In this document: in pieces, positions 11,674 to 49,990 of the stretch | Numbering within the stretch: the stretch's first letter is position 1 | Layout: the number at the start of each line of letters is the position of its first letter | Assembly (NCBI GenBank): GCA_027065235.1 | Contig: JAMOOR010000086.1 | Location: forward strand, 1 to 55,149 | DNA: 55,149 nucleotides | Direction of reading: 5' to 3' | Source of the DNA: Thermotogaceae bacterium | Lineage (GTDB): Bacteria; Thermotogota; Thermotogae; Thermotogales; Thermotogaceae | Position numbers and translations under genes: made by a program | The notes under the pieces: model-generated | Told to the model about the DNA's origin: nothing | Database searches by the model: none | Seen by the model: only the letters and a program-made list of their open reading frames with translations

Positions 11674-11837
11674 ATCCAAACCTCCTCAACTTTAACTAGT
11701 TCCCAACCTCTCCTCCGTACAAGCATTCTAATCTTGTATTCGGCCTCTCTTACGTTTCTGGCAAAATAGGAGGGTAACAAATCTTCTAGCGTAATTCCAT
11801 CCGTCCTATGCCTTAGAACAATTTTCCAGAACCTCAT
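11670..11837 (-). CDS. 55-residue basic protein coupled to the integrase
   Basis: The frame MRFWKIVLRHRTDGITLEDL continues through RNVREAEYKIRMLVRRRGW to VEEVWI. It has about 13 Arg/Lys and looks like a small winged helix or excisionase-like fold. A GGTGAGAAGGT site precedes the ATG and the stop forms an ATGA with the integrase start, which implies coordinated synthesis. A recombination directionality factor is an attractive guess, since such proteins are small, basic and sit beside integrases. No homology was recognised. Confidence 0.55.
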   Translation of the reverse strand: MRFWKIVLRHRTDGITLEDLLPSYFARNVREAEYKIRMLVRRRGWELVKVEEVWI

Positions 11838-11859
11838 ACCTTCTCACCAAGGATCCTAT

Positions 11860-12196
11860 CTGTGGACACAAAGAGTCGATTGGCCCAATATTGTGGACAC
11901 AATAAGCGCTGCAGGTATGTGGCCACAAAGATGGACGTCTCCAGAAGCTTGTGACCACAGAGGATCCTGGACCTATCTGTGGCCACAAATCACCGGTGAT
12001 CTTGTGGACACAGTTGGGATCCTGTATATCGGAGCTCCAGTTGTGGTCACAAGAGGATCCTGGAATATTGTGGACACAGGTTTCCGGATCCTCGAGAAGC
12101 TTGTGGACACAATCAACCAACCGGGACCTACTTGTGTCCACAACCCTGGTCCAATAGTTGTGTCCACAACTCGAGGTTCCAGGACTGTGGCCACAA
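11860..12196. repeat. Array of 12 palindromes, consensus NTGTGNNCACAN
   Basis: Copies begin at 11860, 11891, 11917, 11949, 11977, 12002, 12041, 12068, 12101, 12132, 12158 and 12185, spaced 25-39 bases. Every copy keeps TGTG and CACA; the central two bases vary (GA, GC, AC, GT, TC) and the outer bases are mostly T and A. Five GGATCC hexamers lie between copies. Any frames through the array are by-products of the repeat. It lies between the integrase operon and the gene for the acidic-tailed protein and has the look of an iteron origin, a partition site or a multi-site operator. Confidence 0.85.
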
Positions 12197-12202
12197 GAGA
12201 TC

Positions 12203-12535
12203 TCACTCATCTTCCCATTCCTCCTCTTCCTCGAAATCGAAATCGTCCTCCACTTTCTCATCTTTCAGAACTCTTCCCGGGAAGAACAGAATTAGCATCG
12301 TTCCCTCGATCTCTGTCTTCTTACTCCAGTTCTCTTCCTTAACGATTCCTTCGGCAATGTAAAGTCTGAACTTCTTTCCGATCAGATCGTTGTAATCGCT
12401 CGGTAGGATTATTCGCGGGCTGACGTATTCCTCCCCGTTCAGCTTCCTCTTGTGCTTTCCTACTTTCCTTTCCTTAGTTTCCCAGCCCCAGCCAGTATCA
12501 GCCCTAATCTCCTTAATCTCTACCTCAACCTTCAT
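12203..12535 (-). CDS. Protein with strongly acidic C-terminal tail (110 aa), possible ssDNA-binding type
   Basis: The body is beta-rich (VEVEIKEIRADTGWGWETKE, then YVSPRIILPSDYNDLIGKKF, then GTMLILFFPG). It ends in an acidic tail, DDFDFEEEEEWEDE. A small beta body plus an acidic, aromatic-containing tip recalls single-stranded DNA-binding proteins of phages and plasmids, which use the tail to recruit partners. The stop is seven bases from the palindrome array, which supports a replication link. The SSB idea is analogy only; no OB-fold signature was identified. Confidence 0.55.
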   Translation of the reverse strand: MKVEVEIKEIRADTGWGWETKERKVGKHKRKLNGEEYVSPRIILPSDYNDLIGKKFRLYIAEGIVKEENWSKKTEIEGTMLILFFPGRVLKDEKVEDDFDFEEEEEWEDE

Positions 12536-14976: not shown

Positions 14977-15020
14977 GGCCTTTGGAGCCCGCGACCGGGG
15001 TTCGAATCCCCGCGGGGCTA
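14976..15020 (+). other. Attachment site: 3' fragment of tRNA-Gln(UUG)
   Basis: The 45 bases fold as the 3' part of a tRNA: anticodon loop CTTTGGA (anticodon TTG), 3' anticodon strand GCCCG, variable bases CGAC, T-stem CGGGG/CCCCG around TTCGAAT, acceptor strand CGGGGCT and discriminator A at 15020. The D-arm and 5' acceptor strand are absent; upstream sequence is protein-coding. This is the standard duplicate left by integration into a tRNA 3' half and marks the right end of the provirus. The anticodon identity predicts an intact tRNA-Gln(UUG) left of the window. Confidence 0.85.
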
Positions 15021-15275
15021 TGCTTATAACCCTTTCGCTTGTGAGCGTTTCTCACAACTTTTGGGGATCTCCTGCGGTGTTTACCTTATTAGGATTTTCT
15101 CGCAACTTGGTGACGCAATTTGTGACAGCTTAATGTCTCTTTTTAAGAACAGAGGCAGTGACACGGTTTCACCATTGCGCGTCTGTGAAAGGATTGCTCG
15201 GAGATTTCGAACCCCTGACGAATTTAAAATAAACGCGTTAAATAAAAAATAAAACAAATTGAAACTCTCAACAAA

Positions 15276-15932
15276 TCAGAAAATTAACAGATTTATCGGA
15301 ATTTGTTCTATCACCTCTCCTCTTTCGATCTTTTCTACAATTTCCTTTATTCTTCTGTAAATCCAGCATTCTCTGCACTCCCTTTTCTCATCTTCAAACC
15401 TGAAAAGTCTGAAGTAGTAGGTGTCAACGAGACCTCCTTGAGGCTTTCTTCTTCCACACTTCAGGACAAGGCATGATTCAGCCAAGTACGTAAGAGCTCT
15501 GCTGAGCGATTTGTTAATGCTTGCATCCTTCAGTCTGAAGCTTTCTGCTAATTTCACTTCTTCTTTTATCTCCGTAAATCTCATGGGTCGATTTCGGCTG
15601 TGAAGAGCTTTCGCAACGTCCGCACACTTCCTGAAATCAACAAATCCTACATTTATCTTGACTATTTCCACAATTTCGTCTTCACTTAGTACTGGAAGGA
15701 AGCTCTCTATTTCCTTCCACACCTCTATTACTCTGGCTAATTTTTCTTCGTATTTTTCCTTGGAAATGACAATCTTCGAGAGGTAAATGATCTCATCAAC
15801 CATCCAGTTGTATTTCTCAAGCACTTCTCTGACAATACCTCTTTGCTTTTCTATAATATCATCACTCACCTTAATCTTCCCGTTTCTGAAATGCTCCTTC
15901 AATATTTTTCCAACTATCTGCCTCTCACGCAT
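15276..15932 (-). CDS. Uncharacterised protein with a probable winged helix (218 aa)
   Basis: The first 90 residues are helical and charged. Residues about 105-165 look like a winged helix (DVAKALHSRNRPMRFTEIKE, then a helix ending INKSLSRALTYLAESCLVLK, then a GRRKPQGG wing). A Cys pair near the end (RECRECWIYRR) could bind metal. It is transcribed away from the AbrB-like gene across a palindromic operator, so it may regulate that promoter. Family not recognised. The 255 bases between it and the attachment site hold nothing I can support. Confidence 0.6.
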   Translation of the reverse strand: MRERQIVGKILKEHFRNGKIKVSDDIIEKQRGIVREVLEKYNWMVDEIIYLSKIVISKEKYEEKLARVIEVWKEIESFLPVLSEDEIVEIVKINVGFVDFRKCADVAKALHSRNRPMRFTEIKEEVKLAESFRLKDASINKSLSRALTYLAESCLVLKCGRRKPQGGLVDTYYFRLFRFEDEKRECRECWIYRRIKEIVEKIERGEVIEQIPINLLIF

Positions 15933-16131: not shown

Positions 16132-16800
16132 ATGGTCAAATACATTGGCCTGAGAGTTGCAGTGCTGAGTGGTGGAGCTTACAAGGTCACGGTGCCTATT
16201 GGAATTTTTAGAGAAGTATGGAAAAAGCTGGAAGATGAAAAACCCAAGAATGTTCCACTCTGCTTCATGAAGGAAAGCGATGTGATAATGATAGAGCCAC
16301 TGGAAAATGTTATGGAAAAAGATTACCCCAAGGAGATAAAGGAGCGTGTTTACGAGGACTGGAAGAAATACTTACGTAAGGTTGTTCAAGAGAAACTGGA
16401 TATCCTTACTGATAACATTGTCAAAGGCAATATTCACGAAATGACTTACCAGCAGATGCTTGATCAAGTGCTTGAAGATATCAAGACCATCATCAGATCA
16501 TACATGAAAAGTCTGAAAGGAGTCCTTAGCTTTACACCCGATGAGCTTGAGTCTATTCTTGCCACAGCAACTCTTGAGATAGAAAGAGAAAAGGAGGAAG
16601 AGTTCAGTTATATTCTGGATGAAATTCGCAAGATGATCGAAAGAAAGCGAGAGATAAAGAAAATGCTTGCAAATCTCGAAGAAAAAAGTGAAATTGACAA
16701 AGATCTCAGAAGGATGATAAGAGAAAGATTGCTATTCGAACTGTCGATTATTGAAGACAGGCTGAAGAGAGTTAAATCCGTTCTTGAGGAGGATGAGTGA
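16132..16800 (+). CDS. AbrB/SpoVT-type DNA-binding protein with a helical C-terminus (222 aa)
   Basis: Residues 5-57 match the swapped-hairpin AbrB pattern: a first strand GLRVAVLSGGAYKVTVP, a helix GIFREVWKKLED, then a VIMIEPLE strand. The remaining 160 residues are charged helices with coiled-coil character. AbrB-type proteins are dimeric transcription regulators. It opens the operon leading into the M48 protease, which overlaps it by eight bases, and lies beside the 16055-16077 palindrome, so autoregulation is likely. The long helical tail is unusual for the family. Confidence 0.65.
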   Translation: MVKYIGLRVAVLSGGAYKVTVPIGIFREVWKKLEDEKPKNVPLCFMKESDVIMIEPLENVMEKDYPKEIKERVYEDWKKYLRKVVQEKLDILTDNIVKGNIHEMTYQQMLDQVLEDIKTIIRSYMKSLKGVLSFTPDELESILATATLEIEREKEEEFSYILDEIRKMIERKREIKKMLANLEEKSEIDKDLRRMIRERLLFELSIIEDRLKRVKSVLEEDE

Positions 16801-18013
16801 GGCAGATTTTCCGCCACACTTAAACTGGTTTCTTTTACTGGTACTTGTAATTCTACTTCTCTCCGCGCTATTTACTTCAACGTATTTTGTAGTGGCAAAT
16901 TATACAGCTTCTAAAAGCCCTGCTGCAGAGGTACTTTACACAATCTGCGAATTTGTATTATTCGCGACTCCTTTGCTGATAGCACTTCTACTTTTCGTAT
17001 CGCCTAGAATAAAACTTTCACAGCTAAACGCCAAGCGTATTGATGATTCCAAGATTATAGAGTTTGTAAATTCGATAAGGAAAGAAATGGGAATAAGGAA
17101 AAATGTGGACATATACGTGGCACCTGAGGTAGGAGGTCATGCAATTGTTTTTGGTTTCAGGAAAGCTTTTATTGTCATTTCTGAAGAGCTCCACCGAAGT
17201 TTCAGCATTCTTCCTCATCTGGTCAGGCCAATTATAGTTCATGAACTCAGTCACATAAAGAACGCTGATGTTTTCACATATGAGTTCGCAGAGGCAGCGT
17301 GGAAGTCCTATGCACTGATAGCTTTGATATCCGGTGCATATCTTGCTGTAAACGCAGATAAGGTATTTTCTTTTTCGTATCCCCTCACCTATGAGCATGT
17401 GCTTGGATTCTGGTTTGATGACATTTTACTTCCCTCGGTTCTGTTATACCTGCTTAACAGACAGATCTCGAAATATAGAGAGCTTTACGCTGATGTTACA
17501 GCAAGCAAAATCGATAAAAATCTGATCACGGCTCTGCGTATGCTATGTTTACCAAGAAAGAGAAGATCTCTCAGATTAGGAAAGCCTATGATCCTTGAGA
17601 GAATTGAGTCTCTCGAACAACCTTTTAGAATTTTCACTCCGGGCTACTGGCACGGATTTATTCTGGGAACCGTGTCGCTTTACGGTTTTGTTTTTGGTTT
17701 AAGACTTGTTCCGTTCACACCATTACAGAGCCTTGAAGAGCTGGAAAGTTTTCTCTTTGCAGTCAGCTATGCTGGAATACTGGTGAGCGTTCTTGGAGGA
17801 TTGTATGTCTTGAGAAATCAGCTAGTGTGGTTTGCCAAGAGCTACAAGAAGATGTTCGGTGTCACGAGACTGACGTTGAAGGACTACGTTCTATTCCTGA
17901 GAATGCTCCTCGCATCATCGCTTGGACTGGTTACGGGCATGTTTTTCGCATTCTTTTCGGGAGGTTTGTTTATCTACACTGTGGAGGCTTTTCTGAAGCT
18001 CATTTTGAAATAG
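16793..18013 (+). CDS. M48-family membrane zinc metalloprotease (HtpX-like, 406 aa)
   Basis: Two membrane helices at about 10-35 and 45-70 precede a cytoplasmic peptidase domain. The zinc motif H150-E-L-S-H154 (VHELSHIKNADVF) and the third-ligand segment YRELYADVTAS are present, so it should be active. Four more hydrophobic helices follow. HtpX/Ste24-type enzymes cut membrane or misfolded proteins. The ATG at 16793 overlaps the AbrB-like gene with a GAGGAGG site immediately before it. The Ubl-E2 gene follows 164 bases later on the same strand, so the protease may belong to the conjugation system, for example as a processing enzyme or effector. Confidence 0.85.
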   Translation: MSEADFPPHLNWFLLLVLVILLLSALFTSTYFVVANYTASKSPAAEVLYTICEFVLFATPLLIALLLFVSPRIKLSQLNAKRIDDSKIIEFVNSIRKEMGIRKNVDIYVAPEVGGHAIVFGFRKAFIVISEELHRSFSILPHLVRPIIVHELSHIKNADVFTYEFAEAAWKSYALIALISGAYLAVNADKVFSFSYPLTYEHVLGFWFDDILLPSVLLYLLNRQISKYRELYADVTASKIDKNLITALRMLCLPRKRRSLRLGKPMILERIESLEQPFRIFTPGYWHGFILGTVSLYGFVFGLRLVPFTPLQSLEELESFLFAVSYAGILVSVLGGLYVLRNQLVWFAKSYKKMFGVTRLTLKDYVLFLRMLLASSLGLVTGMFFAFFSGGLFIYTVEAFLKLILK

Positions 18014-18177: not shown

Positions 18178-18846
18178 ATGGGGCTGGAGTCCGGGCCGAG
18201 AAGGATTGAGGTTTTGATAGGAGCCGACAGGGTGCCTGTGGAAATCGATGAAAGAACAACTGCAAGGGACGTAAAGAGAAAGCTTGGAAGAGATAGTAGT
18301 GAGTGGATGCTTCTGGTGAACAATGTTGTTCTTGGCGACAAGGAAAAAATACTGCCAAAGCTTACGGGAAAGGACGATGATATCAGGCTCGTTCCGAAGA
18401 CAGACGTCGGCTCCTCTTTAATTTTTTTAACTGGCGAGAAAAGGATGAAGCAGGAAGAAACTCTTCTCAGAGGAATGGGCTTTGTGCCCGATGGTCACCG
18501 GAAGTATTCGGGTCTGTTCATGGCATGTGGTAGGATATTCAAGATGACTGTGTATCTTCCGCCAACCTTTCCTTATTCTAGGCCTATCATAACAATAGAT
18601 GATCCCTATTTTCTCGGTAAGCACCCGTGCATACTCCGAAGCTCCTACGGTATAGAGGTTCACTTCCATGATAGCGACTGGAAACCCTGGATGCACGCTG
18701 CAGATCTTGCCGCTCAGGCTGTGAGCTTTCTGAAATCGTTTGAGAAGAAAGAAGAGGAGAGGGACGTTCCATGTGCGGATCGAGAGGATATAATAGCTCT
18801 GGTGGAGAGATACATCGAGTTGTTAGGACGGCTCAGGAGATTTTAG
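18178..18846 (+). CDS. Ubiquitin-like / E2-like fusion protein (222 aa)
   Basis: Residues about 8-75 form a beta-grasp-like ubiquitin domain (RRIEVLIGADRVPVEIDERT, a helix ARDVKRKLG, LVNNVVLGD, DDIRLVPKT). Residues about 88-188 follow the E2/UBC layout: helix 1, strands ending KMTVYLPPTFPYSRPIITI, then H149-P150-C151, W168-x-P170 and a C-terminal helix. H149-P150 corresponds to the HPN motif; at the usual active-site position (YGIEVHF) there is no Cys, so C151 is the candidate nucleophile. The ubiquitin part has no free diglycine tail. With the JAMM and E1 genes beside it, it most likely carries or transfers a ubiquitin-like modifier. Confidence 0.75.
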   Translation: MGLESGPRRIEVLIGADRVPVEIDERTTARDVKRKLGRDSSEWMLLVNNVVLGDKEKILPKLTGKDDDIRLVPKTDVGSSLIFLTGEKRMKQEETLLRGMGFVPDGHRKYSGLFMACGRIFKMTVYLPPTFPYSRPIITIDDPYFLGKHPCILRSSYGIEVHFHDSDWKPWMHAADLAAQAVSFLKSFEKKEEERDVPCADREDIIALVERYIELLGRLRRF

Positions 18847-19517
18847 AGTATTACAAGAATGTCATGAGAAAATTCGCAGCCTACAGTATAAGGATAATAT
18901 CGCTTGTTCCCCTTGCCATTGGATGTGGGCTAACGTTAGTTTCAGCAAGAGCTCTCAGATTTGCCGACGAGCTTGAGGGTTGCGTATCGGAACTGAAGCA
19001 TGAAACAGGTGAAGAATGTAGAGAACCGGAAGAGCTAGTGATCCCCTCTCCGGTTCTCTACGAAGCTTTCAGCATACTCATTTCTCACGGCAAAAAGTCG
19101 AAGGAATGGATCGTAGCCCTTGGTGCTCAGGAGCTTGATGGAAAGCTTGTGATAACAAGAGTTTACGACGTTAACTGTGCAATCTCCCATACAACGGGTG
19201 CCGAGGTCGATTACCAAAGCCTCGCCAAGGCGCTCAGATTCTACGAAGAATGTGGGTATCAGATTGCGGGGCTTGCACACATTCATCCTTGGAATTCCGA
19301 AACAGTATCACCAAGTGCTACTGATATCAAAACTCATAGACAGTGGGAAGAGCTGTACAAAGGGAAGTTCATCGGAATCGTTTTCAACAATTCAGGAGTG
19401 TTCAGAATATTTCACGGTGGAAAGTGCAAGGTAAAGCCTAAAGTTGTTGGAAAGGGAGTTAAAAGGATCGGAAAAGAACTTTACAGGCTTGAAAAATGTG
19501 AGAAATTGGTTTCTTAA
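18771..19517 (+). CDS. JAMM/MPN+ (JAB) isopeptidase-like protein with a membrane helix (248 aa)
   Basis: The metalloprotease signature is complete: E112, H170-x-H172-P, S182 and D185 (AHIHPWNSETVSPSATD). A hydrophobic helix at about residues 36-60 suggests anchoring with the active domain in the cytoplasm. The ATG at 18771 follows a GAGGAGAGGG site but overlaps the E2 gene by 76 bases; a second ATG at 18864 would avoid overlap yet has no ribosome binding site. JAMM enzymes of this kind remove or mature ubiquitin-like proteins. Its stop overlaps that of the opposing 611-aa gene. Confidence 0.85.
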   Translation: MCGSRGYNSSGGEIHRVVRTAQEILEYYKNVMRKFAAYSIRIISLVPLAIGCGLTLVSARALRFADELEGCVSELKHETGEECREPEELVIPSPVLYEAFSILISHGKKSKEWIVALGAQELDGKLVITRVYDVNCAISHTTGAEVDYQSLAKALRFYEECGYQIAGLAHIHPWNSETVSPSATDIKTHRQWEELYKGKFIGIVFNNSGVFRIFHGGKCKVKPKVVGKGVKRIGKELYRLEKCEKLVS

Positions 19518-21349
19518 CACTTTTTCATTTCCTTTCTTCCTCTCTTTATACTATCTTCGAGCATTTCTTCCAGAACTTCTGGCAGAGTTGTTGCTAAGAT
19601 CCAAAGGGTAATAATTCTTTTTTCCTCCTCACTAATTTTAGAAAGATCTTTAACAAATTTTTCTAGCTTTGGTATGAGTTCTTGGTAAAAGATTTGTAGG
19701 GTTTCCTCTTTTCTGAAGTCTAATCCAATCTGAAAGCTTAAAGGCTCGACCTTTTCAATAAGCCTGTCTAGATCTTCTTCAGTTAAACAGTGCCAGTACA
19801 TTCTGGTTGGGCGCGGAGACCATATGTTGAAAATAGAAGCTAAAGTTAGTGGATCGAACCAGATCTGTCTCTTGTATTCTTCTTTGCCTATTACTTCAAG
19901 AATAAACTTTTTTATTTCCTCCTTAAATTCAAATAGCTTATCATAGATGATCTTTAAACGTTTCGCGTCTATCTCTCTTTCTACCTTGCGATAGTCTGTA
20001 GAAATATCCGTTAATTCTACATAATGAGAAAGAGCTCTTTTGAGTTCTTCTATGTAATATTTCAGAAAATGTTTGAAGATTTTAATCTCCAAAAGCGAGT
20101 AAAAGGGCAGTGGGGGTTGGTTATGAATAATTTCACTGCATGCTGTCCAAAGGTTTTTTAGATTCGCTTGAAGGTTATATTCCTTGCAAATAATCTCAAT
20201 AGACTTTCTTGTAAGATTAAGACACTTATCTTTGAGTATAAGAACCTTATTCTCCCAGTCTTCTTGCAGCTCCTCTAACGGCTTAGAAAGTATCCTGTTT
20301 AAAGCTTTGTTTATTTCGATCTCCCAGTTTTTAAGGTCATCATGTTTATAGATACTCTTACCTCCCGCTTTGATTCTCTCTCCCTCAAAAAGTAACATCA
20401 AAACAATTTCGCGATTTTCCTTGAAGCTCTCCGCAATTTTCTGGTAAATGATTAATTTTATTAGGAGCTCCAAGATATTTCGAAGGTGAAAATAACATGC
20501 TGGTATGCTTAAAATCTCAAAAGCAGACAAAAGACCGTACCACCACATCTTAAGCTGGGAAGTAAAGTAAACGGAAGCTTCATTCTCCTCATAAAATGTG
20601 TCTTCTAGTCGGGCTATTAACTCTAGAAGTCGTTCAAGATAAAATTTGATTTCATAATAATCTCCAGCATAGAGCAGGATCTTTCTGAAGTTTTCAAAGT
20701 TACGTCCGTATGTTTGTTTAAGTTTATCCTCTTTAATTTTGAGAAGTCTTAAATGTCCACCAGTTGAAAAGTAAAAGTTAGCTAGAATTTCGTTATAAGC
20801 ATCTTTTATCATCTTTCCATCCTTTTCTATTTGAGCAATCCAATGTTCAGATTTTCTCTCCAGATACTCAAAAAATACATCCCAATTTATTCTTAAAGAA
20901 ATTGTTCTGGTGTTGGAAATGGAGTTATCAATCAAATGCAGTCTGACCAATGGTTTACCATCTAAGCAAATACTTTTCTCCCTTGCTACAAAATCCTTCC
21001 ATCTTCTTTTAAATTCATCAGCAGAGATGTTTCTTTCAAACATCTCACTACAGATAGAAACAATAAAAGAGTAGATTTGTTGAGGTACATCAACATATAT
21101 CTGAGCAGGTCTGATTCTGATCTTTCTTCCAGCTTTATCTCTCTCCCGAAAGGTTATTTGTATGGAGTAAGTTGGAAATAGTTTTGATAATCTCATGCTA
21201 AAAAGTATATGTTGTTGTGTCCATTTAAAACTTTTATGAGAGCATTTATCAGCTCCCTTACAGTTTTCCAGTCCATAATCATAGTTAGTGTTTGATGACA
21301 GTTTGTCCCCTCCTTTAACACGGATTTCAACAAAATCTGCATGTTTCAA
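19514..21349 (-). CDS. Large helical protein inserted within the Ubl cassette (611 aa)
   Basis: The protein is almost all helical, Lys/Glu/Leu-rich, with a beta-rich segment at about 60-165 and a CKGADKCSH cluster near residue 30. Two local patterns, LRNILELLIKLI and ACSEIIHNQ, loosely recall HEPN-type RNase folds, but I cannot assign it. It runs against the cassette: its stop overlaps the JAMM stop by four bases and its start lies ten bases from the E1 start. Such tight fitting suggests an inserted cargo gene, or a regulated antisense partner such as an effector. The start could lie further inside. Confidence 0.7.
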   Translation of the reverse strand: MKHADFVEIRVKGGDKLSSNTNYDYGLENCKGADKCSHKSFKWTQQHILFSMRLSKLFPTYSIQITFRERDKAGRKIRIRPAQIYVDVPQQIYSFIVSICSEMFERNISADEFKRRWKDFVAREKSICLDGKPLVRLHLIDNSISNTRTISLRINWDVFFEYLERKSEHWIAQIEKDGKMIKDAYNEILANFYFSTGGHLRLLKIKEDKLKQTYGRNFENFRKILLYAGDYYEIKFYLERLLELIARLEDTFYEENEASVYFTSQLKMWWYGLLSAFEILSIPACYFHLRNILELLIKLIIYQKIAESFKENREIVLMLLFEGERIKAGGKSIYKHDDLKNWEIEINKALNRILSKPLEELQEDWENKVLILKDKCLNLTRKSIEIICKEYNLQANLKNLWTACSEIIHNQPPLPFYSLLEIKIFKHFLKYYIEELKRALSHYVELTDISTDYRKVEREIDAKRLKIIYDKLFEFKEEIKKFILEVIGKEEYKRQIWFDPLTLASIFNIWSPRPTRMYWHCLTEEDLDRLIEKVEPLSFQIGLDFRKEETLQIFYQELIPKLEKFVKDLSKISEEEKRIITLWILATTLPEVLEEMLEDSIKRGRKEMKKC

Positions 21350-21359
21350 ACAAACATCT

Positions 21360-22097
21360 ATGAACGATAAGGAGAAGTTGTTTCTTGATAGAACCCTCAG
21401 AATTCCTTGGTTCGACTATGAGAAAATGAAAAAAATGCGTATTGGAGTGATTGGCACTGGAAACACGGGATCCTACGTCGCTGTCATGCTCTATGGTCTT
21501 GGTCCCAGAGAGCTCTGGCTCATCGACAAGGATGTTGTAGAGCTCTCGAACATTCAGAGGCAGTTCATGTATTCTGAAAAGGACATAGATAGGCCAAAGG
21601 TTGAGGCTGCGAGGGACTTTCTGCTGAGCAGATTTAAAGGATTAAACACAAAAGTCAGGGCTGTGGTCGCAGACATAAGATACTTTGACGAATTCGATTT
21701 TGACTTTGTTTTTTCGTGCGTTGACAACAACTCTGCAAGGAAGGCTATACTCAAGATGTGTCTGGAAAAGAGAATACCGCTCATAGACATGGGACTTGAG
21801 TTCTATGAATCTCAGGCAGGCCATGTTCTGCTCGTTGATAGAGAGAAGTTCCCTGAAGGTGCGTGCATAAACTGCTACATGGATCTCGATAAGAAGAGCG
21901 TGTACAGAGGAGGGTGCATCGCATCGGGAATAACTTACTCAGGAGCGATTGTAGCTGGTGTTGCTGTTGGAATGTTTGTTCAGCATGTGATGAAAGAGCT
22001 CAAAGTGAACTATTACTTCATAGACCTTAACACTTGCATCACAATGTTCAAGCTGATGAAAAGAAGGGAAACCTGCAAGGTGTGTAGCGATGCTTAG
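21360..22097 (+). CDS. E1-like (ThiF/MoeB/UBA-fold) adenylating enzyme (245 aa)
   Basis: The nucleotide-binding G-x-G-x-x-G (GTGNTG, residues 32-37) is followed by D56/D58, the N64-x-x-R67-Q68 box (NIQRQ), K80 and D122. These are the residues that activate the C-terminal glycine of ubiquitin-like proteins. C186 (RGGCIASG) is the candidate catalytic Cys. Two CxxC pairs (C169/C172 and C229/C232) form the usual zinc site. The ATG at 21360 is preferred because upstream codons overlap the opposing gene. It pairs with the Ubl-E2 and JAMM genes, and its stop overlaps the next small membrane protein gene. Confidence 0.88.
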   Translation: MNDKEKLFLDRTLRIPWFDYEKMKKMRIGVIGTGNTGSYVAVMLYGLGPRELWLIDKDVVELSNIQRQFMYSEKDIDRPKVEAARDFLLSRFKGLNTKVRAVVADIRYFDEFDFDFVFSCVDNNSARKAILKMCLEKRIPLIDMGLEFYESQAGHVLLVDREKFPEGACINCYMDLDKKSVYRGGCIASGITYSGAIVAGVAVGMFVQHVMKELKVNYYFIDLNTCITMFKLMKRRETCKVCSDA

Positions 22098-22275
22098 AGG
22101 CTTAGAGTTTATTTTTCTATTTTTTTGTCTTATAGGAGCTTTCATAGTTGAAAGATGTGGAAAGTATTCCTATGCTGTAATTTTGATAATCAGTATGTTC
22201 TTCCATCATTTTGCGGTGTTCATACTTGCATGCATTCTCTGCTATTCTTACTGGAGAAGATTGCGTGGTTACTAG
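22090..22275 (+). CDS. Small two-helix membrane protein coupled to E1 (61 aa)
   Basis: The ATG lies inside the last codons of the E1 gene (eight-base overlap), so translation is coupled. Helices span about residues 5-22 and 27-48, the second containing FFHHFAVFILACILCY with two adjacent His residues. A basic end (YWRRLRGY) would face the cytoplasm. It may anchor the conjugation machinery or be its membrane target. No family was recognised. Confidence 0.6.
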   Translation: MLRGLEFIFLFFCLIGAFIVERCGKYSYAVILIISMFFHHFAVFILACILCYSYWRRLRGY

Positions 22276-22383: not shown

Positions 22384-22572
22384 ATGCAGTTCTCAGAGCA
22401 TGTAAGAATACTAATCTTCGTACTCATAGGATTTCTTGCTCTCTTTGTCGTAGCTTACTCCCTCAAAATAACAAGATTGTGGATCGCTGCTTTCGTCGTA
22501 ATAATAGTTCTTTCTGGAACGATTGCTGTTCTCGCAAGGTGGAGCAGGTATGATGTTGAAGAAACAGACTAA
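22384..22572 (+). CDS. Small two-helix membrane protein before HerA (62 aa)
   Basis: Two hydrophobic helices (about 8-26 and 31-49; LIFVLIGFLALFVVAYSL and LWIAAFVVIIVLSGTIAVL) are followed by a short acidic tail (RYDVEETD). The gene overlaps the HerA start by 23 bases. This echoes the small membrane proteins that precede the VirD4-like gene at 37414. It may form a membrane base for the ATPase. Function unknown. Confidence 0.6.
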   Translation: MQFSEHVRILIFVLIGFLALFVVAYSLKITRLWIAAFVVIIVLSGTIAVLARWSRYDVEETD

Positions 22573-24916
22573 ACACATCAGAATCTATGAAATCTCAAAG
22601 CCAAAGAACGAAAGCTTTCTCAAGGCAGTGAACTTTCCCTTCACTGTCATTATAGATGTCAATAGATTCGCAAAGCTCTATATTGAAATACACTCAGCAT
22701 CATTCTTCAGAAAGGAGAAAGACCTTGAAAGGAAGTTTAAGCGATTGCTCGAAGCACTATCTTCTGAGTACGATTTCAAATGGATTGAGGAAAGACCAAG
22801 TGATTTTGAAGGCTCATTCTTTTACACAGCAACCTATAACGATCACAGCTTAGCGGATCTCGTGAAAACTCTCATTCTAAACGATATAAAGGCAAGAATT
22901 ATTCTCACCTTCAAACCTAATGCAAAATGGCTGTGCAGCTTTGTTATTGCATCTGATAAGGAGATCACCCACTTTCTCAAAACGTTTTTCAGGGATATGA
23001 AAAGAATTAGCAAAAAGGAGTTTGAAAAGGTAAGGAAAGGAGTACTGATAAATCCAAAAATTCTGAAAACGTTCACGCTCAGAAAACTTCCAGGAATTGC
23101 TTCACTTCCAGTTCTCGATGTCATCGTTCCCGTGAGGTTTACCTTTGAACCCAAGAATGCGATAAGAGTTGGCAGAGTTATTCATCTCACAACCGGAAGG
23201 GAAACTGTTGATGCATTTCTTCCTATTCAGAGGATAAACCAGCACGTTGCAATTTTAGCAACCACTGGAGCCGGAAAAACGAATCTGTGCAGACATATGA
23301 TAATCGAGCTTCACAAGAAAGGAATTCCATGCCTGATCTTTGACTGGAAGAGGGATTACAGGGATCTTGCGAAAAAAATAGATGCTGTAGTTTATGATTT
23401 CAAGGAAAATCTCTTCACGTTCAACCCTTTGAAGCCAGCGGGCGAGCCTTCAATGTGGGCTAAGGAGCTTGCAAACATAATGGCTGAGGTTATCTCGGGA
23501 GGTGCATATGCTTCCGGTGCTTTCTCTGTTTACGTTGAGCTTATCGACAAGCTATATCGTGAGCGTGGCGTTTACGATGGCTCCAAAAATTACCCAACGA
23601 TTTTCGATCTTCTCAGAGAGCTTGAAGAATATTCAAAGCAAAAAATTTCCGAGAGGGAAAGAAACTGGATCGCCTCGGCTTTGAAGCTTTTCAAATCACT
23701 TGCTGTCGGAAAGACGAGGGAAGCTTTTGATGTAAAGGAAGGAATAAGCATTGCCGAACTTCTGAGCAAGACAGTTATAATAGAGCTCGATGGGCTTGGC
23801 GATCCAATTGCAAAGGCTTTTCTGATCTCAGTTCTCCTGCAGAAGATAAGGAACTACAGGCTTGAGCGAAAGGAGAGAGATGTTCTCAAGCATGTTATCG
23901 TTATTGAAGAAGCTCAGAACGTTCTGAAAAGGGATGAGGAAGCCTCTTCTATAATCACAACAACCTACAGGGAGATAAGAAGCCTCTGCGAGGGAATAAT
24001 ATCGATTACTCAGATGCCCTCAGAGTTCAGCAAGGATGCTCTGGCAAATACAAACACTTTCTTTGTCATGAAGCTCGTTCACAGGGATGACAAGCTTCTT
24101 GCTTGTAATTTGCTTGGACTTAATTACAGATACATGAGAATTCTTGAGCATCTTGAGAAGGGTACCGCATTCATGAAAACTGATGGCGTGTGCCTGATAA
24201 AGGTTCCTCTGGTTGAGAAGGAGTACATTGAGATAAAGAGGCAGAGACCTTCGAGAGAAGATGTTGCTGCGTGTGCTGCAAGGAGAAACGATGTGAGGGA
24301 GAGAGCGGAAGATCTGACTGAAAAGGAGTGGCTTGTGCTGAAATGCATCGGCGAATCTCTTGCATACAACAACTCAACACTGCAGAAGGTTACCGGGTTC
24401 TCGAATGACGAAATCAAGAAAATTATTGGTAGACTTGTCGAGAAGGGCTTTGTCAGATATGCGTATGCAAAGAAGAAGGGAGCTGGAAGGAGGCAGAAGA
24501 CTTACTTCCTGTTTCCTTATGGTGAGGAAGCTTACAGACAGAAATTTGGAGAATATCCTGATATTGTAAGAGCAAAAAGAAAGAGAAAGGATGTTACTCA
24601 TGAAGAGATGAAAAGAAAGGTTATGGAAGTTCTTGGAATTCCTGATGGTCGTTTTGGAAGATTTGATATAATTGCTGAAGACGGACCTATTGAAATTGAG
24701 ACCGGAAGCAACAGAAACGATCAGATCTACGAAAACATAAAGAAAAGCGTTGAGGAATTTGGATTTGCAAGGTTTGTTGTTGCCGATGAGGTAACTTACA
24801 ATGCTGTTCTGCAGCAGGCTGCGAGGTACAGGTTTGAGAGTGAATGTAAATTTGAGCTACAAATCAATACATACAACAATCTAAGCAAGTCATGGAACAT
24901 ATTTATTTTTAGATAG
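22550..24916 (+). CDS. HerA-type ATPase with winged helix and nuclease-like tail (788 aa)
   Basis: The P-loop ATTGAGKT lies near residues 237-244, followed by LIFDWKRDYRDL and the Walker B VIVIEEAQNVL, typical of HerA DNA translocases. Residues about 585-650 form a winged helix (WLVLKCIGESLAYNNSTLQK, ... IIGRLVEKGFVRYAYAKKKG). The last 100 residues (FDIIAEDGPIEIETGSN) have the D...ExE order of a restriction-endonuclease fold. The ATG at 22550 is chosen for its GGTGG site. HerA pumps with linked nucleases occur in several defence systems. This one follows the Ubl cassette and may be its DNA-acting arm or a separate module. Confidence 0.85.
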   Translation: MMLKKQTKHIRIYEISKPKNESFLKAVNFPFTVIIDVNRFAKLYIEIHSASFFRKEKDLERKFKRLLEALSSEYDFKWIEERPSDFEGSFFYTATYNDHSLADLVKTLILNDIKARIILTFKPNAKWLCSFVIASDKEITHFLKTFFRDMKRISKKEFEKVRKGVLINPKILKTFTLRKLPGIASLPVLDVIVPVRFTFEPKNAIRVGRVIHLTTGRETVDAFLPIQRINQHVAILATTGAGKTNLCRHMIIELHKKGIPCLIFDWKRDYRDLAKKIDAVVYDFKENLFTFNPLKPAGEPSMWAKELANIMAEVISGGAYASGAFSVYVELIDKLYRERGVYDGSKNYPTIFDLLRELEEYSKQKISERERNWIASALKLFKSLAVGKTREAFDVKEGISIAELLSKTVIIELDGLGDPIAKAFLISVLLQKIRNYRLERKERDVLKHVIVIEEAQNVLKRDEEASSIITTTYREIRSLCEGIISITQMPSEFSKDALANTNTFFVMKLVHRDDKLLACNLLGLNYRYMRILEHLEKGTAFMKTDGVCLIKVPLVEKEYIEIKRQRPSREDVAACAARRNDVRERAEDLTEKEWLVLKCIGESLAYNNSTLQKVTGFSNDEIKKIIGRLVEKGFVRYAYAKKKGAGRRQKTYFLFPYGEEAYRQKFGEYPDIVRAKRKRKDVTHEEMKRKVMEVLGIPDGRFGRFDIIAEDGPIEIETGSNRNDQIYENIKKSVEEFGFARFVVADEVTYNAVLQQAARYRFESECKFELQINTYNNLSKSWNIFIFR

Positions 24917-24932
24917 CTAATAACTATATGTC

Positions 24933-26096
24933 ATGATTAAAAAGCTCAGAAAAGCTAAGAAGTATAATAAAATTTTGAGAGATATAAGACCATCACCCTA
25001 TCTTGTAATATTCTCGGGGAGAATAGCTTCTATGCAGAAAGATAATGGAAGTTGGTTTGATGATCCTTTTCTAACAGCTTCTGCATTAAGAGCTCTTCAT
25101 GAATGCTCTAAAATCTTTCCTGATATGAGTTTTAAGGATTGTATTAGAGCTGGCAAAAGGTACCTTGAAAATGAGTTAGAACGACTCTCTGAAGAAATTT
25201 TAACGTCAGAAGATATCTATCTTAATTTAGATGAAAATGCGAGAACGCTCTCTCTACTTATTTTAGTATTATCTACTGTTGCCAAAAGTAAATTTAACAA
25301 AGATGTATTGCAAGCGTTTGAAAAGCTAGAGAAAGAGGTAACAAAATATCGAAAATCCCTTGGAGATGTGGAAATCATATCACAAGTTGTTAAATGTCAT
25401 TGTATCAAAGGTTTTGGGAAACCTCCAAGTGAATTAGTTGAATTTTTATTGGAGAAATTACTACTATCTGATGACCTAACTCTTAAATTAGCAATATTAG
25501 AGAGTATTTTTTATATTAAGGAAAAATATGAAAAATTGCTTGAAAATGCTTGGAGTAAGATCTCACCAAAACATGGACTAGATGACAAAGATTTCTGGGA
25601 GCATCTCCAAAATATAGCCATAAAACTTTTAGAAAATCTTGAGAATAATGACATCAAAGCAGAAGCCCTGTATTATGGGAACTTAATAGCAAAACAATTA
25701 GATGCTAATTCATTGGGAATATGGACACTTACGTTGAAAAAAGCTGAAAATTTGTTTAGTAAAGTATACAGCGAAGATGATGAATATTTTTTATATGAGT
25801 TCTCATTAATAGCAGAATCATTAGCTATTTCCCCGTTTGGGAAAGCTATGTTCATAAACGCCGAGAATCTTCCTGAAGTAGATAAAGCTATCAGATGGTA
25901 CGAAGAGAAAAAGAGAAATAACATTATTATGCTCTCTAAAAGAAAATATAATGCTACTATATTTTTCACTTTAGCTAATTTTTCCGCTTTTATATTTCTT
26001 TTAGTACTTTGGCTTACGAATGATCTCAAAGCCGCTATTATTTCTGGAGCAATACCAATTTGTGTATCATTGGTTGTCTCTCTGCTAGTAAAATGA
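24933..26096 (+). CDS. Helical-repeat protein with two C-terminal membrane helices (387 aa)
   Basis: Near residue 30 a QKDNGSW-x-DD-PFLTASALRAL segment resembles the QxxxGSW motif of alpha/alpha-toroid (terpene-cyclase-like) proteins. The middle is made of helical repeats. Two membrane helices lie at about 345-360 and 365-385, making this a tail-anchored protein. It starts 16 bases after the HerA gene on the same strand. The base composition is more AT-rich than HerA, hinting at a different origin. Possibly a membrane-disrupting effector; this is speculation. Confidence 0.6.
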   Translation: MIKKLRKAKKYNKILRDIRPSPYLVIFSGRIASMQKDNGSWFDDPFLTASALRALHECSKIFPDMSFKDCIRAGKRYLENELERLSEEILTSEDIYLNLDENARTLSLLILVLSTVAKSKFNKDVLQAFEKLEKEVTKYRKSLGDVEIISQVVKCHCIKGFGKPPSELVEFLLEKLLLSDDLTLKLAILESIFYIKEKYEKLLENAWSKISPKHGLDDKDFWEHLQNIAIKLLENLENNDIKAEALYYGNLIAKQLDANSLGIWTLTLKKAENLFSKVYSEDDEYFLYEFSLIAESLAISPFGKAMFINAENLPEVDKAIRWYEEKKRNNIIMLSKRKYNATIFFTLANFSAFIFLLVLWLTNDLKAAIISGAIPICVSLVVSLLVK

Positions 26097-26106
26097 TGCA
26101 AACACG

Positions 26107-27570
26107 CTAAATAAACCACAATGTTCTTTCTAGCCAAGAGTTCTCTGGAGGATTTATTCCTTGAGCGTATGCTCTTGCAACATCTTGTGCAAATTCTAAT
26201 GTGGCTGGTAATCTGATAAGACCAGGAAAAATTGTTTGCCAATGAAGTGCCGTTTGATCAACTATATGTTTACATACATCCTCAAGACTAGAAAAAGGAC
26301 AATCTTGCTCACCCAAGTTTTGACAACATGCAATAATTGGATATATCATCTCATTTCTTTCTCTATCTTCCAACGAACCTGCAGTAGAGATTATAGCAGT
26401 GCGATCATTTATGGCTACACACGTACCAACCTTAGCGTTTTTCGTTTCCTTACTTTCATCCAGTAAAAAGAATGCTTGCTCTTGTATGATACCTATAAAT
26501 CCTACCTTTATTTCACTTATTTGTGAAGTCTTAAAAGATTCTTTAGCGTCTTCTACAGCCTCCTTAACACCTAAAATCTCTTCTGGATGGAATAGGTTAA
26601 GTCGATGTAACGCAACGTTTAGAGTATTCTTTCCATTTTCATATATTTTTGCGATTCTGGGGTCTTTTACAGCAGTTTCAAGAATTTTTAAAAAGAATTC
26701 TTTCATATCTTTCTTTGAGATTTTCATTCCTTTTGTGTAATATTTTCTTGAAGTAACCGTACCTATTAATCTACCAAAGCTATCGAGTATTACAGCATGT
26801 CCTACTACATACCCTTTAGATAGGCGAGCAAAGCGGATACCAATTGAGATATCTAAGGGTTGCTCGGTTCTCTGTCTGATAATCCAGGGTAAACCTCCAA
26901 CTTTTCCATATATATTTAGAGAAAAATTCCATAATGAGTAACTAACATCCCTTTTGTGGGATATCTGGTATAGTATGCCATATCCTTCAGCCTCAAGCTC
27001 GTAGTATGAAGCATACTGTGTAGGAAGACCTTCTTTTGTTAACAATCTCTTAGCCTCTATGTACTGTTCTCTCCTCTTTAAAGAGCTTTTATGAGCTGTA
27101 CCTCCAATCACTATTACAGGTATATTCTTTCTTTCAAAAGCCTCCTGAGACACTACCTTTATCTCCTCCAAGTTCTCAGAAATATTACCTACTTTATATT
27201 TAATGAACTCATCAGAAGACCTTGGAATATATACTCTCTCTAATCTAAATTCAGATTGAAATCCATCAAAACTTACACTGCCTGTATATCCATCATCCAT
27301 ATACTCCATTAAACTAAGTAATGCATTTTCAACCATTTTCTCGTCTTTAGGATATACTACAATAATTTCTATGCCTTTGAATTTTCGCTTTAATGTCTCA
27401 GAAGAAGTCTGACTATCATAGGGGCCATATATGTGAATTCCCTTTAAAGGAGGTATCAGTTTACGAGTACTTTGTCTATCACTAAAAATGTAGAAAGGTT
27501 GTCCAACATCTATCAACTTTAGGGAAGCTTTTTGAATCCTTATGACTTCCGTCCGAAGCCCTACTATCAT
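26107..27570 (-). CDS. Argonaute MID-PIWI protein, catalytically inactive (487 aa)
   Basis: The C-terminal half is PIWI: VGGLPWII (about 224-231), a first RNase H-like strand ISIGIRFAR, a LHWQTIFPGLIRLPATLEFA stretch and the terminal ...PPENSWLERTLWFI, matching the end of Archaeoglobus Piwi (NPWFL). The first catalytic Asp is replaced by R246, so it should bind but not cut. A Y170-x3-K174-x10-Q185 pattern may be the guide 5'-phosphate pocket of MID. PAZ and N domains are absent. The ATG overlaps the partner gene stop (ATGA). Such truncated Argonautes act in plasmid or virus defence with a partner protein. Confidence 0.82.
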   Translation of the reverse strand: MIVGLRTEVIRIQKASLKLIDVGQPFYIFSDRQSTRKLIPPLKGIHIYGPYDSQTSSETLKRKFKGIEIIVVYPKDEKMVENALLSLMEYMDDGYTGSVSFDGFQSEFRLERVYIPRSSDEFIKYKVGNISENLEEIKVVSQEAFERKNIPVIVIGGTAHKSSLKRREQYIEAKRLLTKEGLPTQYASYYELEAEGYGILYQISHKRDVSYSLWNFSLNIYGKVGGLPWIIRQRTEQPLDISIGIRFARLSKGYVVGHAVILDSFGRLIGTVTSRKYYTKGMKISKKDMKEFFLKILETAVKDPRIAKIYENGKNTLNVALHRLNLFHPEEILGVKEAVEDAKESFKTSQISEIKVGFIGIIQEQAFFLLDESKETKNAKVGTCVAINDRTAIISTAGSLEDRERNEMIYPIIACCQNLGEQDCPFSSLEDVCKHIVDQTALHWQTIFPGLIRLPATLEFAQDVARAYAQGINPPENSWLERTLWFI

Positions 27571-28331
27571 TTAAACCACTCCTCTAAACTGACTTGCTTC
27601 ACATCTCTTTCTTTACGCTCTTCACTTTTTATAGTAAACTTCCACCCTTTGAATAAAAGTTTTCTATCAGAAAGATATACATCAAGCGGGAATACTTTAC
27701 CGAGTAAGTCTTCAATAATCTCTTCATATTTCTTTGAAGATCCTTTACTCACACGCGAGATTAGCTTTGACCTTGTTTGAGGATCCTTAACTATTTTATA
27801 CTCATAATCCACACATTCATAGTCAACACTCGGTACTATACCAATATTACTTAAATTAACTCTAAGAATTTTGTCGAGAGAAATTCCAACTATAACTCCA
27901 GTATACATGCCCGAAGTAATAAACTTTGAGCTATAAAATCTTCTTTTAGGCATCAATATAATATCCTTATGTCCTCTTAACTTAGTACGAAGAGTATAGC
28001 TTAAAGCATCTCGTACTAACACTATACCTACATCAAGCCAAAGTTCATCGGAAGTCAGTGTAGTTGTTGTAACATCGATTTCGTCGAATCTTTTGAAGTA
28101 CTCTTTAGCTATTTGCATGATTTCCTTCTTTTCTACATCTTCCTTACTAACTGAACATAACCATAGAAATTTTTGAAAAAAGGCATGCCCTAAACCTCTT
28201 CTTAATAATTCTTTGCGAAATCTTTCTGAAGAAACTTTCAAATTTTGTCTAACTGTTTCAATTCTCCACAAAATAACATCCTCTAATAAGTCACCCTCAT
28301 TTAGCATTAGATTAATGGATATGCTTGTCAT
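27567..28331 (-). CDS. Argonaute partner, N-L1-L2-like protein (254 aa)
   Basis: This gene is immediately upstream of, and coupled to, the MID-PIWI gene. It begins with helical segments (GDLLEDVILWRIETVRQNLK). A beta-rich middle follows (KFITSGMYTGVIVGISLDKI), and the end is FPLDVYLSDRKLLFKGWKFTI. Archaeoglobus fulgidus Piwi is known to work as a heterodimer with a separately encoded N-L1-L2 protein of similar size and position. The assignment here rests on that context, length and beta content, not on a sequence comparison. AAATAATTTATTAAG upstream fits a TATA box for a leaderless ATG. Confidence 0.6.
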   Translation of the reverse strand: MTSISINLMLNEGDLLEDVILWRIETVRQNLKVSSERFRKELLRRGLGHAFFQKFLWLCSVSKEDVEKKEIMQIAKEYFKRFDEIDVTTTTLTSDELWLDVGIVLVRDALSYTLRTKLRGHKDIILMPKRRFYSSKFITSGMYTGVIVGISLDKILRVNLSNIGIVPSVDYECVDYEYKIVKDPQTRSKLISRVSKGSSKKYEEIIEDLLGKVFPLDVYLSDRKLLFKGWKFTIKSEERKERDVKQVSLEEWFK

Positions 28332-28400: not shown

Positions 28401-29828
28401 TCAGCCTCTTAGCTTGTATTCAAATCTTTTCTTCTCAAATTCTCCTGGCTCAAGAATATGTAACCAATCATTAACTCTTTTCCTATATTCTGTTGCTATA
28501 TCCATTATTGCTTTGAGTTCGCTCTTGTCGTGGCTTTCATTTGGTATTAGGAGTTTGTACAACCCGCTGACAATTTTCTTTATAGCTTTTTCTTCTCTAA
28601 TAGAATAATCTCCAATTAGCTCAACTTCCTGCTCTACTATGTAGCTATAATCATACTTTCTAAGCTCATGAAGAACTTCGCAGAAGTAATCTGAAGCAAT
28701 ACCGTAACTTTGAGATAAATGATAGCTGGATTTACTTATCTTTGGTAATTCCCAACCTGGAATAATCCCGTGAATCCTGTCTATTAATGCGGAATCTCTC
28801 ATTTCTTGTGGTAAGATATATGTTAATTCCTCTACGGGAACGAACTTTCCAGATTCATCTTTTTCGACAGAGACATTACCCATGAAGACTATAGAGCATC
28901 CGCTTGATGCTTTCTTTGGTCCTCTTTCATATTGTCCACTTTCCATATAGTCTTTGAGCTTTCCTATCATTTCATGCGGATTTGAGAATTTTATTTTACT
29001 AATTTCATCAAAAATCACAGCATCCTTCGTTCCAATTTCTCCTAAAGTTTTCTTCTGTATGTTGTAGAATAAAACAGCTGGACTTATATTTCCTCCAGCA
29101 AAGATTCGAGTGTAATATGTTGAGTTTCTGTAGAGATAAGTTTTACCAGTCGCTCTTGGTCCAAATTCAATTAGATTTGAGTTCCTCTCAACTAAAGGGA
29201 TTAGACGGGTTAGGAGAATCAGCTTTTGTCTCCTATCATAGACTTTTGGATTCAGCCCAAGAGTGTTGATGAGAACATCGAGCCATTCGTCAAATGTGAA
29301 TTCATCTCTTGCTTCTTTAAACAGGTTTATGTCTGTGAAAGAGCATTGGAATGGTCGAAAATCTGCGATGAGTACTGGGGTCATTAAGGGGTTACCATCT
29401 GAGTCTTTTGGAACAATATCAATAGCGTATTTCAACGTTACTAAGCCCCACATCCCTGTAATCAGGAGATTTTCGTGTTCTTCAATAATCGCCTCATCAA
29501 TCATGCAATTTCTAAGATTTAGATTCTCCAAATGAGCTCTGTAAGTTCTTCGATAGATGTCAGTTTCAACTCTGACCTCATCTATGATCACGATCTTGTC
29601 GAACTTCATTAAATCAGAGAGAATCTTCTCTCTTTCCTTGGCTTCGTGATAATATTTCGATATAAATTCCGAGAGCTTCTGAGTGTAGATCTCTCCGTAT
29701 TTTTCATAGAATCTTGATGCAAGATTTTCAATAACAAAGCGAGGTAGCATAGTAAACTCCTGTTTGTTTGCAATTCTCTTATCAACAGCTAAATCACCAA
29801 AGACGGCTTTTATCTTGCTTGAGAGCAT
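28401..29828 (-). CDS. brxL: BrxL-like AAA+ protein lacking the Lon domain (475 aa)
   Basis: The order of motifs is that of BREX BrxL: an N-terminal AVFGDLAVDKRIANK segment, Walker A LIEFGPRATGKTYLYR, FAGGNISPAVLFYN, Walker B DAVIFDEISKIKF, MKDYMESG-type (LKDYMESGQYERG), IVFMGNVSVE and LIDRIHGIIPGWELPK. Typical BrxL continues into a Lon-like protease; this one stops after a helical region at 475 residues. A GAGGTGA site selects the ATG ending at 29828. BrxL binds DNA as a ring and is needed for phage exclusion. It ends a four-gene operon begun by the PglX-like gene. Confidence 0.85.
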   Translation of the reverse strand: MLSSKIKAVFGDLAVDKRIANKQEFTMLPRFVIENLASRFYEKYGEIYTQKLSEFISKYYHEAKEREKILSDLMKFDKIVIIDEVRVETDIYRRTYRAHLENLNLRNCMIDEAIIEEHENLLITGMWGLVTLKYAIDIVPKDSDGNPLMTPVLIADFRPFQCSFTDINLFKEARDEFTFDEWLDVLINTLGLNPKVYDRRQKLILLTRLIPLVERNSNLIEFGPRATGKTYLYRNSTYYTRIFAGGNISPAVLFYNIQKKTLGEIGTKDAVIFDEISKIKFSNPHEMIGKLKDYMESGQYERGPKKASSGCSIVFMGNVSVEKDESGKFVPVEELTYILPQEMRDSALIDRIHGIIPGWELPKISKSSYHLSQSYGIASDYFCEVLHELRKYDYSYIVEQEVELIGDYSIREEKAIKKIVSGLYKLLIPNESHDKSELKAIMDIATEYRKRVNDWLHILEPGEFEKKRFEYKLRG

Positions 29829-29845
29829 GTTATTCACCTCATTAA

Positions 29846-49775: not shown

Positions 49776-49990
49776 TATAACACCTCCAAACACGCTTTAA
49801 TCAACCTCAACCAAGCGTTTACAGCCGCTCTAAGGTCTGCCAACTCATCCGCCTCAAGCTTTAGCATTAGCCTACCTCCATCTAAATAAACCTTTGCCTT
49901 GCTTATCGCATCCCTCTCATCAACCTTCAATGCTCGGTATAGGATTTCGGCTTTCCACTCCTCCATCTCAAAAACGAACTCAGCCTCCAA
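49775..49990 (-). CDS. pcc1: KEOPS complex subunit Pcc1 (71 aa)
   Basis: The small alpha/beta chain with FEMEEWKAEILYRALKVDE, a DGGRLMLKLEADELADLRAA strand-helix and NAWLRLIKACLEVL matches Pcc1. Pcc1 dimerises in the KEOPS complex, which makes t6A37 on ANN-decoding tRNAs. It overlaps the Brix gene by 11 bases and is coupled to pfdB. Length is normal for archaeal Pcc1. Confidence 0.85.
   Translation of the reverse strand: MEAEFVFEMEEWKAEILYRALKVDERDAISKAKVYLDGGRLMLKLEADELADLRAAVNAWLRLIKACLEVL

Follow-up and report, generated by a model that had tools for sequence, protein, structure and literature searches.

The window analysed here is 55,149 nt of DNA, comprising positions 1-55,149 (forward strand) of contig JAMOOR010000086.1 in assembly GCA_027065235.1, a bin assigned to Thermotogaceae bacterium. 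It carries a locus that, on its predicted domains and conserved residues, is very probably a ubiquitin-like (Ubl) conjugation cassette, with genes for a Ubl-E2 fusion protein, a JAMM metalloprotease and a minimal E1 enzyme. Our overall reading, held with modest confidence, is that this mobile cassette for Ubl conjugation comes from heat-loving archaea of the Archaeoglobi type and most likely serves in defence; modifier and E2 would be made together as a single proprotein.

The Ubl-E2 fusion and its partner enzymes

The fusion protein (222 aa) is encoded on the + strand at 18178-18846. An earlier note on this DNA, made from the sequence alone, had described it as an N-terminal Ubl domain joined to an E2, and both folds were predicted when the protein was modelled. 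An AlphaFold2 model built from two sequences, the window protein and its Archaeoglobaceae orthologue, had a mean predicted local distance difference test score (pLDDT) of 69 and displayed a beta-grasp at residues 8-73, a UBC-like core at 86-141 and a helix at 174-192. The layout is thus a SAMP2-like beta-grasp (about residues 8-73), a tail ending ...DDIRLVPKTDVG78, a linker (79-85) and the UBC-like fold; modelling confidence was low across residues 76-81, which include Gly78. Foldseek searches with the model returned ubiquitins (TMt up to 0.75, with 0.66 for Caldiarchaeum ubiquitin), which match the first half, and the E2 Ubc15 (TMt 0.47) among the longer matches. The top match, Bqt4, superposed poorly (root-mean-square deviation 13) and was discarded. 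A Pfam scan of the single sequence matched UQ_con alone (E 0.057), whilst scanning all four known family members, namely the window protein and three orthologues described below, matched UQ_con in two (best 0.036), SAMP2 in two (best 0.0059) and ThiS in one (7.8e-4). In a PDB profile search, SAMP2-type structures aligned weakly with the first half. The E2 part contains H149-P150-C151, E160-x-H162, W168-x-P170 and H173; C151 is invariant in all four members, as are most of the other listed residues, and the HPC context of the cysteine is also found in ATG3 and ATG10. The model and the Ubc15 match, together with C151 in all four proteins, point with moderate confidence to a UBC fold.

The JAMM/MPN metalloprotease (248 aa; 18771-19517, + strand) is encoded by an ORF that overlaps the Ubl-E2 gene by 76 bp and whose start codon is uncertain. 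Its sequence displays the JAMM/MPN+ signature E...HxHPx(n)SxxD as E112...H170-x-H172-P-x8-S182-x2-D185, and all five of these residues, previously proposed as a full set of metal ligands, are kept in the orthologue from a related genome, G183. Family searches were weak (PADLOC JAB 0.0048; BRCC36 0.23), so the assignment stands on motif and synteny. A single-sequence structure model of the protein reached a pLDDT of 36.

The E1 (21360-22097, + strand) is a minimal enzyme of MoeB/UBA5/UbaA type with a single ThiF domain in 245 aa (PF00899, E 4e-38, 131 bits). The ATG at 21360 is its likely start, because the G183 orthologue begins at the same alignment position. As the earlier note had it, the enzyme contains GxGxxG (GTGNTG) and NxxRQ (NIQRQ) motifs and a candidate cysteine, Cys186 (numbered from 21360); these, the NxQRQ form of the second motif and two CxxC pairs are conserved in E1 homologues. 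PDB searches placed the protein nearest MoeB, followed by UBA5 and SUMO E1, and the 25 best PADLOC matches were all to 'E1-E2' profiles. Cys186 is kept in three E1 members and lies within one alignment position of Cys250, the active-site cysteine of UBA5 (PMC12355090), which makes it a candidate thioester cysteine. The window E1 was the sole ThiF-family match in the host bin. The best matches in the bin's own phylum (~30 % identity) were longer proteins and were set aside as ordinary-looking E1s, and the plasmid matches with listed names were ordinary MoeB/ThiF-type enzymes.

The likely end of the Ubl part is marked by Val77-Gly78, invariant in all four fusion proteins, after which the residues differ in both sequence and length. 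A match to the fusion in a further genome, G209, is a standalone Ubl ending in GG, and this served as a comparator. In alignments with free end gaps its last Gly fell on Gly78 of the window protein, on the equivalent residue in those of G183 and G151, and one residue off in that of G156; shuffled controls matched the alignment score in 0, 4, 0 and 0 cases per 500 for the four members. Elsewhere in the host bin, SAMP2 had no match and no Ubl of ThiS type scored above cut-off, although the bin is ~92 % complete and another Ubl could escape detection. A MoaD candidate in the host (G000:C266) was rejected as a short ORF resembling, by eye, an S4-type RNA-binding protein. There is also precedent for such processing in Caldiarchaeum, whose JAMM protease Rpn11 cleaves both pro-ubiquitin and a ubiquitin-GFP fusion (PMC5654768). 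From the invariant Val-Gly, the G209 alignment, the lack of another SAMP2/ThiS-type Ubl in the bin, the adjacent JAMM gene and the Caldiarchaeum precedent, the simplest reading is that the fusion is probably a proprotein. JAMM would cut it after Val77-Gly78, releasing a SAMP2-like modifier with the terminus -PKTDVG and leaving an E2 that begins near Ser79.

The Val-Gly end, in place of Gly-Gly, weighs against cleavage at Gly78 and would suit an alternative that we consider unlikely, in which the fused Ubl is never released and works in cis, either docking E1 much as a UFD does or serving as an autoinhibitor. The true modifier would then be a different protein, or else the substrate of the E2. 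The UFD is a domain of canonical E1s; the 245-aa E1 is too small to contain one, and a beta-grasp borne by the E2 could replace it. Cleavage nevertheless accounts better for the SAMP2-like sequence, the invariant Gly where a SAMP would terminate and the JAMM encoded alongside, and a purely cis-acting Ubl also fits poorly with a bin in which no other candidate modifier of ThiS/SAMP2 type was found.

Relatives, tRNA location and deletion scars

When one genome per species was scanned with a pattern, a single relative of Ubl-E2 emerged, in Archaeoglobaceae archaeon AUK153 (G151; 63 % identity). Searching the class of G151 added G183 (54 %) and G156 (45 %), such that Ubl-E2 was present in 3/59 genomes; as orthologues, the three proteins are 44-64 % identical to the window protein. 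No further clear member was found in 394 relatives of G183 or in 390 genomes around the bin. Weak matches in G158 and G439 were dropped, being frames with stops and lacking a supporting match. Viral, phage and plasmid collections yielded no relative of Ubl-E2 or JAMM, and viral collections none of E1 or of the HerA-type ATPase encoded downstream of the E1.

The genes occur together in these other genomes, with a full operon in G183 and partial copies in G151 and G156. In G183 the order is a divergent gene for a winged helix-turn-helix (wHTH) protein, then genes for a coiled-coil-type protein, an M56/M48 membrane protease, Ubl-E2, JAMM, E1, a 62-aa membrane protein and HerA, most of them overlapping. 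Identity between the window and G183 is 42-72 % for JAMM, Ubl-E2, E1, the small membrane protein and HerA; the wHTH protein, the coiled-coil-type protein and the protease are less similar, at 30-34 %. Since the same gene order recurs in G183, the cassette is not a chance assembly. The G151 copy is spread over two contigs, which likely represent one locus: the first carries wHTH and Ubl-E2, and the second the E1 C-terminus, 61-aa and 62-aa membrane proteins and a HerA cut short after ~34 residues, beyond which come restriction-modification-like genes. In G156, the wHTH gene is followed by three other genes (one encoding an HD-domain protein) and then by Ubl-E2 near a contig end. Judged from these copies, the core of the cassette appears to comprise wHTH together with Ubl-E2, JAMM and E1, with the HerA and small membrane proteins commonly linked and the M56 slot variable.

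Three additional genomes (G154, G181 and G179) retained what appear to be deletion scars, in which fragments of HerA with 73-80 % identity to that of the window abut a wHTH remnant and the intervening genes are gone (L078 13003-14947; L079 262-1277; L080 4033-5048). In every Archaeoglobi copy and scar, the wHTH gene stands at the left end. The junction in G154 is unlike that common to G181 and G179, giving at least two distinct junctions; because of this difference, the cassette would seem to have been more widespread formerly and lost at least twice. Repeated loss would fit a defence module that is costly to keep, but other explanations are possible.

A tRNA gene immediately precedes each of the six Archaeoglobi loci (three copies and three scars); it is tRNA-Ala (GGC) at five, including those beside the scars, and a predicted tRNA-Ile (GAT; L033 298-372) in G151. 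At the corresponding place in the window there is a tRNA 3' half (14986-15021, + strand), ~255 bp before the wHTH gene and with no 5' half nearby; Aragorn, run with introns allowed, predicted no complete tRNA anywhere in the window. An integrase gene (10708-11679) is present upstream. Given the partial tRNA at this position and the upstream integrase, the 3' half is a probable attachment-site remnant of a second element that entered the tRNA gene beside the cassette.

The contig itself is probably Archaeoglobi-like, and possibly misbinned rather than typical of its bin, on the basis of composition, size and one gene. Its tetranucleotide profile correlates at 0.81-0.87 with 7 of 12 sampled Archaeoglobi genomes, against 0.77 with contigs of its own bin, whilst the other sampled contigs of that bin correlate with each other at 0.86-0.94. 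At 55 kb it is also far longer than the next among the sampled contigs (21 kb), and a Brix-type gene, named by eye (49980-50468), is 57 % identical across 133 residues to its counterpart in G161. Composition and the Brix-type gene therefore fit Archaeoglobi better than the assigned bin. We make no claim of inter-phylum transfer.

Comparison with known systems and proposed function

E1, E2, JAMM and Ubl are encoded together with conserved adjacency, and by these features the cassette would belong among the prokaryotic E1-E2-JAMM Ubl operons. It had been reported to match no nameable system, and the comparison bears this out: CBASS, Bil, Bub, SAMP and Caldiarchaeum each differ in at least one defining feature that we tested, those of Bil and Bub being drawn from reviews or PDB titles. 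The system of Caldiarchaeum subterraneum (ubiquitin, E1, E2, RING and Rpn11/JAMM) is likewise archaeal and compact, with a Ubl precursor and a JAMM that matures it (PMC5654768). Its pro-ubiquitin, however, is standalone, ends in GG and is accompanied by a small RING protein, whereas our cassette fuses the Ubl to E2, has a 245-aa MoeB/UBA5-type E1, lies in a defence-type island with wHTH, M56 and HerA genes and gave no RING match among the cassette genes scanned. Bil operons also combine Ubl, E2, JAMM and E1, with BilC maturing BilA, and the CEHH motif of BilB resembles Cys...E-x-H in the cassette E2 (PMC11354881). They differ in that BilA is a separate protein with two Ubl domains and BilD a large E1 that combines an inactive adenylation domain, an active one and a Cys domain (PMC11354881), in contrast to one Ubl carried on the E2 and one ThiF domain in the E1.

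Type II CBASS (Cap2/Cap3) shares E1, E2 and JAMM chemistry, a defence context and the 'E1-E2' profiles matched by the E1. Cap2, however, is an E2-E1 fusion that conjugates the CD-NTase (PMC12355090), whereas the cassette has separate E1 and E2 chains and a predicted beta-grasp modifier; as the earlier note observed of a nucleotidyl cyclase, none was evident, with no nucleotidyltransferase match in the scanned cassette genes or the variable genes of other copies. Bub operons are bacterial Ubl operons of E1/E2 type, and the E1 region of Citrobacter BubCD matches at E 8e-8. BubCD is nonetheless one 458-aa chain of which only the E1 part aligns (cassette residues 21-146 to BubCD 184-313), unlike a separate 245-aa E1 and an E2 fused to Ubl. 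The Haloferax SAMP/UbaA/JAMM pathway offers a SAMP2-like Ubl, a UbaA-like E1 and a JAMM protease, but SAMPs are standalone, end in GG and are conjugated without an E2 (PMC11354881), whereas the cassette Ubl is internal, ends in VG and is accompanied by an E2. Types 6a-6e of Iyer et al. (2006) are sporadic clusters of E1, E2, JAB and sometimes Ubl, some on mobile elements; they are bacterial, their E1 is usually fused to JAB or E2, and none of those described couples an N-terminal Ubl to an E2 with an active-site Cys in such a neighbourhood (PMC1779556). What appears distinctive is the combination of a Ubl-E2 proprotein, a single-domain UBA5-like E1 and the M56/HerA setting. Neither a Ubl-E2 fusion nor a Ubl cassette for defence in archaea was described in the literature we searched.

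If the modifier is released as proposed, E1 would adenylate the freed Gly78 terminus and hold the modifier as a thioester, probably on Cys186. From there Cys151 of the E2 would take over the modifier and attach it to a target; possible targets are the HerA ATPase next door and proteins of viruses or plasmids. JAMM would also strip the tag. Expression would be controlled by the divergent wHTH protein and, at two loci, by the BlaR1-like membrane protease, whilst the HerA ATPase and small membrane proteins may form an effector or DNA-acting arm. From the Argonaute, BrxL and type IIG restriction-modification genes nearby, and the restriction-modification-like genes beside the G183 and G151 copies, we infer that the cassette probably serves defence.

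Several observations weigh against this account. HerA is truncated in G151, which also has no M56 in the usual slot, and G156 has different genes there; just four Ubl-E2 copies are known, two of them at contig ends; the JAMM assignment is based on motif and position; and the defence genes nearby may be bystanders, as the island also holds integrases and a TraG-like ATPase. The last point bears on an alternative of rather low probability, in which tagging regulates a Ced-like DNA translocase (HerA/CedD with two-transmembrane proteins) or the spread of the element. The ATPase (22523-24916, + strand; 72 % identical to that of G183; HerA/VirB4/CedD type, with a wHTH and, by eye, a candidate PD-(D/E)xK-like C-terminus) has CedD as its best NCBIfam match (E 7e-26), CedD being a CedB paralogue required for DNA import (PMC11868833). 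The small proteins have two predicted transmembrane segments, as do CedA1 and CedA2 (PMC9905601), and the window contains two integrases as well as the TraG-like ATPase. The CedD match, however, scored 91 bits against a family cut-off of 600, no CedA/VirB6-like channel was recognized, defence genes are present in the same island and the G151 copy of the ATPase is broken. A SAMP-like housekeeping pathway, with a role as sulfur carrier or in protein modification and lying in the island by chance, as the likeness of E1 to MoeB/ThiF/UbaA and of Ubl to SAMP2 might suggest, is very improbable given its highly sporadic occurrence within the G151 class and absence around the bin, its island and tRNA location, and the fact that SAMP conjugation needs no E2 (PMC11354881).

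In its fullest form, the proposal is of an archaeal antiviral system in which one proprotein supplies both modifier and its own E2, is split by JAMM and is coupled to a BlaR1-like protease and a HerA/CedD-type ATPase, which we regard as possible but somewhat doubtful. Tag and E2 would then be made one-to-one and conjugation switched on by the protease, and this would be, to our knowledge, the first dedicated ubiquitin-like defence system known in archaea. Some archaea, like bacteria, may therefore use ubiquitin-style tagging in defence, where knowledge of Ubl conjugation is recent and, in the literature searched, so far bacterial. For archaea such a role has so far been conjecture, as in the suggestion that Borg desampylases may counter a SAMP-based defence (PMC12660748), and the cassette gives the idea of archaeal Ubl defence a concrete, small and testable set of probably thermostable proteins. 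The fusion would represent an unusual joint delivery of tag and conjugating enzyme, and could shed light on the pre-eukaryotic assembly of E1-E2-JAMM modules.

Other cassette genes and the surrounding island

The remaining cassette genes begin with the divergent wHTH-like protein (15276-15932, - strand), a candidate regulator whose HTH was judged by eye and which matched no Pfam family. It is followed by the coiled-coil-type protein (16132-16800, + strand; 222 aa), which is 32 % identical to that of G183 and has, by eye, a possible AbrB-like N-terminus. The membrane metalloprotease (16784-18013, + strand) contains HELSH and about six predicted transmembrane segments, and among the other copies is present only in G183. 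The earlier note had listed an M48 protease, small membrane proteins and a HerA-nuclease as neighbours; M48-like, small membrane and HerA proteins are all present, but the protease scored best with M56 (BlaR1) in both Pfam and NCBIfam. Together with the divergent wHTH gene, it suggests an arrangement of sensor protease plus repressor.

Between JAMM and E1, the window alone has an opposite-strand gene (19514-21349, - strand) for a 611-aa protein with no family assigned, which the earlier note passes over. It splits the operon here; in G183 it is absent and the JAMM and E1 genes share 19 bp. Beyond E1 are the small two-transmembrane proteins of 61 aa (22090-22275, + strand; also in G151, not found in G183) and 62 aa (22384-22572, + strand; 61-69 % identity in G183 and G151), followed by HerA.

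Further downstream, the window contains an Argonaute with a partner-like gene (26107-28331, - strand; PADLOC), a BrxL homologue (28401-29939, - strand; PADLOC E 9e-110) and a type IIG restriction-modification enzyme in two ORFs that match two parts of one PADLOC profile (31148-34789, - strand), as well as the TraG-like ATPase, the second integrase and a Cdc6-like gene. Restriction-modification-like genes, judged by sequence, also adjoin the G183 and G151 copies. The 387-aa protein encoded directly after HerA (24933-26096, + strand), with two C-terminal transmembrane segments, is probably part of the Argonaute module and not of the Ubl cassette, because homologues of Argonaute, its partner and this protein (47 %, 42 % and 29 % identity, respectively) are clustered in G161 (L081). 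Separately, translations at ~11800-12350 of the window display repeated WPQ/VDT/CVHN-like sequences on both strands, suggesting a short repeat array.
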